Shown in pieces: positions 56,935 through 58,895 of a stretch of DNA of 64,000 nt. Position 1 is the first letter of the stretch, and every line of letters starts with the position of its first letter. Both the position numbers and the translations under genes were made by a program. The notes under the pieces are model-generated. The model had not been told where the DNA came from. It saw only the letters and a list, made by a program, of their open reading frames with translations, and did not search any database. The DNA is from Geodermatophilus amargosae (lineage in GTDB: Bacteria; Actinomycetota; Actinomycetes; Mycobacteriales; Geodermatophilaceae): assembly GCF_900116515.1 (NCBI RefSeq), contig NZ_FPBA01000020.1, positions 1 to 64,000 on the forward strand. The letters run 5' to 3'.

Positions 56935-58377
56935 ATGGTCGGGGCGATGACGACGGTCCCGGACGGGCTGGTCGCGGTCGTGAAGCGCGACTGCCCCACG
57001 TGCACGCTGGTGGAGCCGGTGCTGCGGCAACTGGCCGATGCCGGCGCGCTCACCGTCGTCTGCCAGGACGACCCCGCCTTCCCCCGCGACCTGCCGGTGG
57101 TCGACGACCGCGAGCTCGAGCTGAGCTGGCGGCTGCGGATCGAGACCGTGCCCACCCTGCTGCGGATGGCCGACGGCGCCGAGTCCGGCCGGGTCGAAGG
57201 CTGGCTGCGCGGCGCGTGGGAGGCCTTCACCGGGGTGCCCGGCCTCGGCGACGGACTGCCCGAGCACCGGCCCGGGTGCGGGTCGCGCAGCGTCGAGTGG
57301 GGCGTCGAGGACGAGCTGGCCCGGCGGTACGGCGGCCGGGTGCTCACCGCGCGGCGGGTCGAGCTGGCCGACCTCGAGGACGACGTCGAGGCGCTGTTCG
57401 ACCGCGGCTGGACCGACGGCCTGCCCTGCGTCCCGCCCACCGAGGAGCGCGTGCTGCGGATGCTGGGCGGCACCCGGCGGGCCCCGGACGAGGTGGTCGC
57501 CGTCGTCCCGCCCGACCTGGTCAAGTGCACCGTCGAGAAGGTCGCCGTGAACGCGGTCCTCGCCGGCTGCCTGCCCGAGCACCTGCCGGTGGTGCTCGCC
57601 GCCGTCGAGGCGGCCTGCCGCGACGAGTTCGCGCTGCACGGCGTCCTGGCCACCACCTGGTCGGCCGGCCCGGTGCTCGTCGTGAACGGTCCGGTCACCG
57701 GGCGGCTGCGGATGAACTCCGGCATCAACGTGCTCGGCCAGGGCAACCGCGCGAACGCCACGATCGGCCGCGCGCTGCAGCTGGTGGTCCGCAACGTCGG
57801 CGGCGGACGCCCGGGCGAGGTCGACCGCGCGACCCTCGGCAACCCGGGGAAGGTCGGCTGGTGCTTCGCCGAGGCCGAGGACGGGCTGCGCCCCTTCCCC
57901 CCGCTGGCCGAGTCGCGCGGCGTCCCCGGCTCGGCGCTCACCGTCTTCGCGGGTGCGGGGCTCGTCCCGTTCCTCGACCAGGCCAGCCGGACGCCGGAGT
58001 CGCTGTCCCGCACGCTGGCCCTCGTCCTGCGCACGGTCGGCCACCCCAAGGCCGCGCTCGGCATGGACGCCCTCGTCGTCCTCGGCCCCGAGCACGGGCG
58101 GGTGTTCCGCGAGGCGGGTTGGGGCCGGGAGCGGTTGCTCGAGGAGCTCGAGCCGCTGCTCCTCATGGAGCCCGACCAGCTGCGGCGCGGCGCGCTCGGC
58201 ATCGCCGAGGGCATGCCCGACGCGCTGCTGGACCGGCCGCTGCCCAAGTTCCGCCCCGGCGGGCTGCTGTTCGCCTACGCCGGCGGCCCGGCCGGGATGT
58301 TCTCGGCGGTCATCGGCGGCTGGGCCAGCGGTGCGGCCGGCAGCTCGCCGGTCACCGTCCCGATCGAGGAGGTCTGA
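56935..58377 (+). CDS. thioredoxin-fold protein with large unknown domain (UGSC partner)
   Basis: 480 residues from ATG 56935; an ATG at 56947 is an equal candidate. The first 90 residues are a thioredoxin-like domain: VAVVKRDCPTCTLVEPVLRQ with a C-P-T-C pair, and VETVPTLLRM like the cis-Pro loop. The rest is a conserved domain I cannot name, with WTDGLPCVPPTEERVLRML, DLVKCTVEKVAVNAVLAGCL, MNSGINVLGQGNRANATIGR and a C-terminal GGPAGMFSAVIGGW; Cys in LPC, VKC and AGC are candidates for redox. Its stop overlaps the ATG of the UGSC gene (TGATG), so the two are translated together and probably exchange electrons. Confidence 0.75.
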   Translation: MVGAMTTVPDGLVAVVKRDCPTCTLVEPVLRQLADAGALTVVCQDDPAFPRDLPVVDDRELELSWRLRIETVPTLLRMADGAESGRVEGWLRGAWEAFTGVPGLGDGLPEHRPGCGSRSVEWGVEDELARRYGGRVLTARRVELADLEDDVEALFDRGWTDGLPCVPPTEERVLRMLGGTRRAPDEVVAVVPPDLVKCTVEKVAVNAVLAGCLPEHLPVVLAAVEAACRDEFALHGVLATTWSAGPVLVVNGPVTGRLRMNSGINVLGQGNRANATIGRALQLVVRNVGGGRPGEVDRATLGNPGKVGWCFAEAEDGLRPFPPLAESRGVPGSALTVFAGAGLVPFLDQASRTPESLSRTLALVLRTVGHPKAALGMDALVVLGPEHGRVFREAGWGRERLLEELEPLLLMEPDQLRRGALGIAEGMPDALLDRPLPKFRPGGLLFAYAGGPAGMFSAVIGGWASGAAGSSPVTVPIEEV

Positions 58378-58895
58378 TGGCACGGGTACTGCTCGACCCG
58401 ACGTCGGAACGGCGGCCGGCAGAACGGGCGCTGACCGCGCGGCCGCCGTCGCTGGAGGGCGTCACGGTCGGCCTGCTCGACATCTCCAAGAGCCGCGGCG
58501 ACGTCGTCGTCGACGAGCTCCAGGCGCTGCTGCACGCCGACGGCGTCGCCACGCTGCGCTACCGCAAGCCCACGTTCGCCCGGCCTGCCCCGGTGGACCT
58601 GCGGCACGAGATCGCCACCCACTGCGAGGTGGTCATCGAGGCGCTGGCCGACTAGGGCTCCTGCACGTCGTGCAGTGTGCACGACATCGCCGACCTCGAG
58701 GCCCGGGGCGTGGTGGGCGTCTTCCTCGCCTCCACGGAGTTCGCCGACGCCGCCACCGCCCAGTCGCGGGCGCTGGGCCTCGCGGTGCCGCACGTGCTGG
58801 TCCCGCACCCGATCCAGGACCGCACCGACGACGAGCTGCGCCGGCTCGCCCGCGAGGCCTACGCCGCCGTGCTGGCCGCGGTCACGGCCGGCTGA
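58377..58895 (+). CDS. UGSC-family selenoprotein with selenocysteine encoded by TAG
   Basis: 172 residues when the in-frame TAG at 58653-58655 is read as amino acid 93. Before it: ARVLLDPTS, VTVGLLDISKSRGDVVVDEL, YRKPTFARPAP and EIATHCEVVIEALAD. After it: GSCTSCSVHDIADLEARGVV, LGLAVPHVLVPHPI and a complete C-terminal helix, ending in TGA at 58895. The TAG stands exactly at the U of the family's U-G-S-C motif, where relatives have Sec or Cys. Coding is intact on both sides, with no frameshift. A GTC-looped hairpin follows the TAG. UAG-directed Sec insertion is reported for Geodermatophilus and Blastococcus. Start ATG 58377 has GAGGAGG upstream and overlaps the previous stop. A plain 92-residue product is the alternative. 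Confidence 0.85.
58653..58682 (+). promoter_or_regulatory. recoding signal: TAG with downstream SECIS-like hairpin
   Basis: TAG (58653-58655), 5 nt, then CTGCAC, loop GTC, GTGCAG (58661-58675). Bacterial SECIS elements are short hairpins close behind the Sec codon with a GU in the apical loop, which this one has. An overlapping alternative fold GTGCA/TGCAC (58670-58682) exists. Confidence 0.6.

Follow-up and report, generated by a model that had tools for sequence, protein, structure and literature searches.

A UGSC-family gene of Geodermatophilus amargosae in which UAG very probably specifies selenocysteine

Results

An in-frame TAG at the U of a U-G-S-C motif

Geodermatophilus is a soil bacterium, and the stretch of DNA from G. 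amargosae analysed here, 64,000 nucleotides long, is called the window below. It carries a gene of the UGSC family (Table 1), the frame of which opens with an ATG at 58377 and continues to a TGA at 58893-58895 with one TAG as its only interruption, giving a read-through product of 172 residues plus the stop. The TAG is followed directly by Gly-Ser-Cys. In a G+C-rich genome, an open frame carries little weight by itself. Two family profiles match the read-through protein across the TAG: PF24696 (E 2.2e-40; 139 bits, cut-off 25) aligns with residues 5-170 over positions 2-171 of 172, i.e., nearly the whole profile, and NF041046 (141.2 bits, cut-off 125) over positions 2-146 of 147. Frame and profiles together confirm what a reading made from the sequence only had proposed, namely a single TAG exactly at the U of U-G-S-C in an otherwise open UGSC frame, with family-conserved residues on both sides. 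PF07116, tried as a selenocysteine-related family, turned out to be DUF1372 and is irrelevant.

The U-site codon of UGSC homologues is TAG, TGA or Cys, TAG being the one found in the window, and this agrees with the earlier statement that proteins of this family use selenocysteine (Sec) or cysteine at that position. Among the best 80 of 430 named copies, the nearest relatives belong to Geodermatophilus nigrescens (94% identity), G. obscurus DSM 43161 and G. aquaeductus. Selection was compared on either side of the TAG in 16 genus orthologues (120 pairs each), where dN/dS is 0.40 before it and 0.38 after it: purifying selection is equal on both sides, and the decay after the TAG that the sequence-only reading had named as counter-evidence is absent from these genus orthologues. 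A rougher comparison of 27 copies over short stretches, each against the window only, is less even (dN 0.087 and dS 0.285 before the TAG; dN 0.187 and dS 0.317 after). Because the profile match extends to both sides of the TAG, because all 34 close homologues in the genus that bear a stop have TAG at this very codon and because purifying selection is equal, a chance frame is excluded.

Table 1. Features of the UGSC locus in the window
Feature	Position	Strand	Evidence or remark
Partner gene just upstream of the UGSC gene	56947..58377	+	Upstream in 63/65 loci with room; start position putative
UGSC-family selenoprotein gene, TAG very probably read as selenocysteine	58377..58895	+	Frame, profile matches and homologues
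In-frame TAG, codon 93, U of U-G-S-C	58653..58655	+	Same codon in 34/34 stop-bearing genus copies
SECIS-type hairpin with an 8-bp stem and, at its tip, the loop GUG (58675-58677)	58667..58685	+	Comparative
Serine codon AGT, last two bases forming the GU of the hairpin loop	58674..58676	+	AGT in 16/16 orthologues

The partner gene ends in a TGA that overlaps the ATG of the UGSC gene. The N-terminal part of its product is weakly thioredoxin-like and has an invariant CxxC; the protein reached no Pfam cut-off, and its larger part, without a Pfam match, gave nothing convincing when compared by sequence with solved structures (best E 0.028, a designed protein). One copy of the partner gene (L321) has a TGA at the conserved C111, on a contig containing Ns, which could reflect an error or else a further Sec site. 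The UGSC protein was modelled (pLDDT 93.0) as alternating strands and helices, with flavodoxin and other Rossmann-like folds as best matches, and comparison of its alignment by sequence with solved structures gave nothing convincing (best E 0.31). The product is probably a redox enzyme that uses its Sec-Gly-Ser-Cys site, lying where a strand passes into a helix in a Rossmann-like fold, and we infer that it probably works with the CxxC protein encoded just upstream. The accessible text of PMC2398784 gives the fold of UGSC proteins as likely thioredoxin-like, whereas the best matches of our model are Rossmann or flavodoxin-like; that a fold is missing from such a match list does not speak against it.

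Comparative support for a SECIS-type hairpin after the TAG

The hairpin starts 11 bases after the TAG. We surveyed 76 UGSC copies, 53 with TAG or TGA and 23 with Cys; L088-L091, L121 and L122, in which no motif site was found, were dropped (none has a stop; two of them were seen as Cys in one comparison and L088 in another), and L090 is missing from alignment A2. The inner six pairs and a loop starting with GU are kept in 53 of 53 stop-bearing copies; among the Cys copies, the six pairs are kept in 1 of 23 and the GU in 4 of 23. In the best 80 of 430 named copies, all eight pairs are present in 77 and the GU in 80. Over 29 distinct stop-bearing rows, compensatory changes that affect both members of a pair are seen in 19 cells, against a mean of 4.2 after shuffling (none of 500 shuffles reached 19). 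When the pair partners are slid out of register, pairing drops from 94% to 54% or less. Changes of this kind fall in three pairs, a number no higher than shuffling gives (reached in 250 of 500), and they come from few lineages. Taken by itself, the window's stretch downstream of the TAG folds no better than its shuffles (z -0.55); the hairpin is supported by comparison and not by folding energy.

The loop coincides with a serine codon that stands out in these genes, since 16 of the 17 AGT codons in the 16 orthologues are the loop-site codon and AGT is rare elsewhere in them. One Cys-encoding UGSC copy (L009:1501-2010) has a stem at the SECIS position, without the GU loop, and is perhaps a former Sec gene.

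Selenocysteine machinery in the genome

In the genome of G. amargosae (G000), selD, tRNA-Sec, selA and selB are clustered within about 5 kb (G000:C22). The tRNA-Sec (L001:1497-1592) scores 66.6 bits against the tRNA-Sec model (cut-off 47) and has the anticodon CUA, and SelA, SelB and SelD all exceed their NCBIfam cut-offs. The full set that the sequence-only reading had suggested looking for is therefore present, and the lack of a tRNA-Sec(CUA) or of SelB, which it had held to count against a native UAG-Sec gene, did not occur. The best SelB profile stretch stops at position 339 of 581, with the RNA-binding end outside that match; SelB shares 52% identity with an annotated plasmid-borne SelB in an alignment that covers residues 1-589 of the latter. 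Six further matches to the tRNA-Sec model in this genome are all below the cut-off, and the one that was scanned (L002) is a tRNA-Ser. ARAGORN names the tRNA-Sec(CUA) tRNA-Pyl in every CUA copy scanned. Two tRNA-Sec(CUA) copies (L169 and L175) occur in a fragmentary genome, G062 (88% complete), possibly an assembly duplicate.

The gene for release factor 1 (RF1), prfA, is present in G000, and TAG serves as the stop of two ordinary genes nearby, which encode a LuxR-type regulator and an enoyl-CoA hydratase; therefore, UAG is not reassigned in general.

Stop codon and anticodon vary together

Within the genus, tRNA-Sec(CUA) is present in all 26 genomes. UGSC matches number 43 in 22 of these genomes, the U codon being TAG in 34 and TGC in 9; in the remaining four, the CUA tRNA is present without any UGSC match, and all four hold a TAG-bearing formate dehydrogenase-like match. 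At the level of the family, tRNA-Sec was checked in 106 of 112 genomes (the 26 of the genus plus 80 under stricter filters, leaving out G059, G060, G061, G068, G101 and G102). It was found in 102, with CUA in 96 and UCA in 6, and one genome (G019) has both; no tRNA-Sec was found in G067, G071, G097 and G098, which are 72 to 82% complete. The UCA form is kept in three family genera, g5, g6 and g7 (L145-L149, L152).

Stops inside UGSC genes divide along the same line, being TAG in 72 of 72 cases within the family and TGA in 15 of 15 outside it. The family has 95 UGSC matches in 54 of 112 genomes, comprising the 72 with one TAG and 23 without a stop, with no TGA; a survey of the order over 397 genomes, in which at most 8 candidates were scored per genome, gave outside the family the 15 with one TGA and 19 without a stop, with no TAG. 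Ten of the 11 order genomes with TGA copies have a tRNA-Sec over the cut-off, always UCA, and G268, which is 57% complete, has none over it. Among the best 80 of 430 named relatives, 20 have TAG, all of them Geodermatophilus or Blastococcus, and 60 have TGA, all from other groups; this named set and the genus set with its 34 TAG copies overlap.

A second TAG gene

A formate dehydrogenase-like gene in G000 also has one in-frame TAG, in the context ...NQARI-TAG-HSATV..., and three genomes outside Geodermatophilaceae show ...NQARI-TGA-HSATV... at the matching site, which we take to be the Sec site of formate dehydrogenase. The pieces of the G000 gene fall below the TIGR01591 cut-off, and Pfam finds molybdopterin oxidoreductase domains in them. 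Formate dehydrogenase-like matches (E 1e-30) are TAG-bearing in 17 of 17 CUA genomes queried and TGA-bearing in none of them; in UCA genomes, they are TGA-bearing in 13 of 16 and TAG-bearing in none. Such genes with TGA occur in 4 of the 6 in-family UCA genomes, and many other formate dehydrogenase-like matches lack any stop. The position of the stop was checked in nine loci and lies in the expected context in six; in L229, the site was found with an empty printed context, and L223 and L245 yielded no site.

Proposed history of the switch and cases of tRNA-Sec(UCA)

The SelA tree comprises 49 of 67 loci (17 gave no SelA stretch and L042 was too short), with a midpoint root, four flagged long branches and three of the six in-family UCA genomes. 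In it, the 43 CUA rows form one clade (support 100/99), the in-family UCA rows G070, G072 and G074 are sister to this clade, and three UCA rows of other families branch outside these. Between the CUA tRNA of G000 and the UCA tRNA of G072 there are 7 differences in 95 positions, and two of these fall in the anticodon. Since the CUA rows form one clade in the SelA tree and the two tRNAs differ so little, these sequences suit a single switch in which the resident tRNA mutated, with no foreign replacement.

Geodermatophilus sp. LHW52908 (G019) has an intact tRNA-Sec(UCA) beside the CUA one (G019:C17:1173-1263, minus strand; L039 / L081; 81.8 bits), located near a contig end with several transposase genes. 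Only one selB match above the cut-off is found in this genome, and its UGSC and formate dehydrogenase-like genes carry TAG. Phage records gave no match to the region of this tRNA, and a tblastn search with eleven proteins (E 1e-3) gave no selA, selB or selD remains near it on the 69 kb contig. Plasmids of Tsukamurella tyrosinosolvens and Arthrobacter sp. YA7-1 (L345, L346) hold selB, selA, tRNA-Sec(UCA), selD and formate dehydrogenase genes together, possibly as a movable selenocysteine cassette; the Arthrobacter plasmid is typed as conjugative.

Discussion

Selenocysteine coding by UAG has already been published for Geodermatophilaceae, also for their UGSC proteins. The sequence-only reading had attributed such a report to Mukai and colleagues (2016), and the accessible text of PMC5330540 bears this out for Geodermatophilaceae: it gives UAG-Sec formate dehydrogenases and UGSC-motif selenoproteins as reported by these authors, lists tRNA-Sec with CUA for three Geodermatophilaceae genomes of its set and adds an AhpC with Sec-TAG. 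As far as that text goes, the present system agrees with the published one in bacterial family, in its tRNA-Sec(CUA) and in having TAG at the Sec position of both UGSC proteins and formate dehydrogenases. The genome and the gene copy differ, and the counts over 106 family genomes, the in-family UCA genera and the SelA tree are added to what that text gives. A literature search covering titles and abstract starts, with most subscription papers outside it, found no report of UCA genera within Geodermatophilaceae. The known UGA-encoded UGSC selenoproteins (PMC2398784, in its accessible part; PF24696; NF041046) share the family and the motif, and UGA homologues share the hairpin position and the GU loop; the stop codon is UGA there but UAG here.

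From the genomic comparisons, we are close to certain that the gene is native and encodes a selenoprotein, with UAG as its selenocysteine codon, as was first suggested from the sequence. That it is no pseudogene is supported by the tRNA-Sec(CUA), the sel genes, the kept codon and the lack of decay. By analogy with what is generally known of bacterial selenocysteine insertion, from which charging, SelB docking, insertion and its efficiency are all extrapolated, the tRNA-Sec(CUA) would be charged with serine, and SelA would turn the seryl-tRNA into selenocysteinyl-tRNA, using selenophosphate from SelD. SelB would then bring the selenocysteinyl-tRNA to the ribosome and dock on the hairpin just after the UAG, which would be read as selenocysteine instead of serving termination by RF1, while UAG elsewhere would remain a stop.

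Compatible with selenocysteine insertion, though rather improbable, is that UAG mostly terminates here, a 92-residue short form being the main or a regulated second product and selenocysteine being inserted only under some conditions. RF1 is present, so competition is expected, but the equal selection after the TAG says that the full product matters. Far less probable is that the UAG is read as another residue, e.g., pyrrolysine, or by a general amber suppressor. ARAGORN's name for the CUA tRNA would favour this and, to judge from the accessible part of PMC10778597, pyrrolysine coding by UAG has in common with the present case a special tRNA with anticodon CUA, but only the anticodon agrees: the RNA fits the tRNA-Sec model and adjoins selA, selB and selD, a SECIS-type hairpin follows the codon, homologues carry TGA or Cys at the site, and TAG also terminates ordinary genes, with no general reassignment. 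A pseudogene or a sequencing error, as a single in-frame stop in an otherwise ordinary gene might suggest, can practically be dismissed, with TAG at the same codon in 34 genus copies and in 20 named Geodermatophilus and Blastococcus records (overlapping sets), dN/dS the same before and after it and a matching tRNA in the genome.

Returning to UAG as a selenocysteine codon, a fuller history can be drawn, which we regard as doubtful when taken as a whole. The entire selenocysteine code would have switched once in Geodermatophilaceae when the resident tRNA-Sec mutated from UCA to CUA, and the selenoprotein genes would have followed. Later, at least one present-day member, Geodermatophilus sp. LHW52908, would have acquired its intact tRNA-Sec(UCA), so that both UAG and UGA may stand for selenocysteine there.

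In practice, ARAGORN gives this tRNA-Sec(CUA) the label tRNA-Pyl, and the selenoproteins of these bacteria are likely to be shortened by gene finders that allow for UGA only. More broadly, this is a natural example of an altered genetic code. The states before and after the change both survive within a single bacterial family, which makes it possible to study in what order the steps of a codon switch took place.
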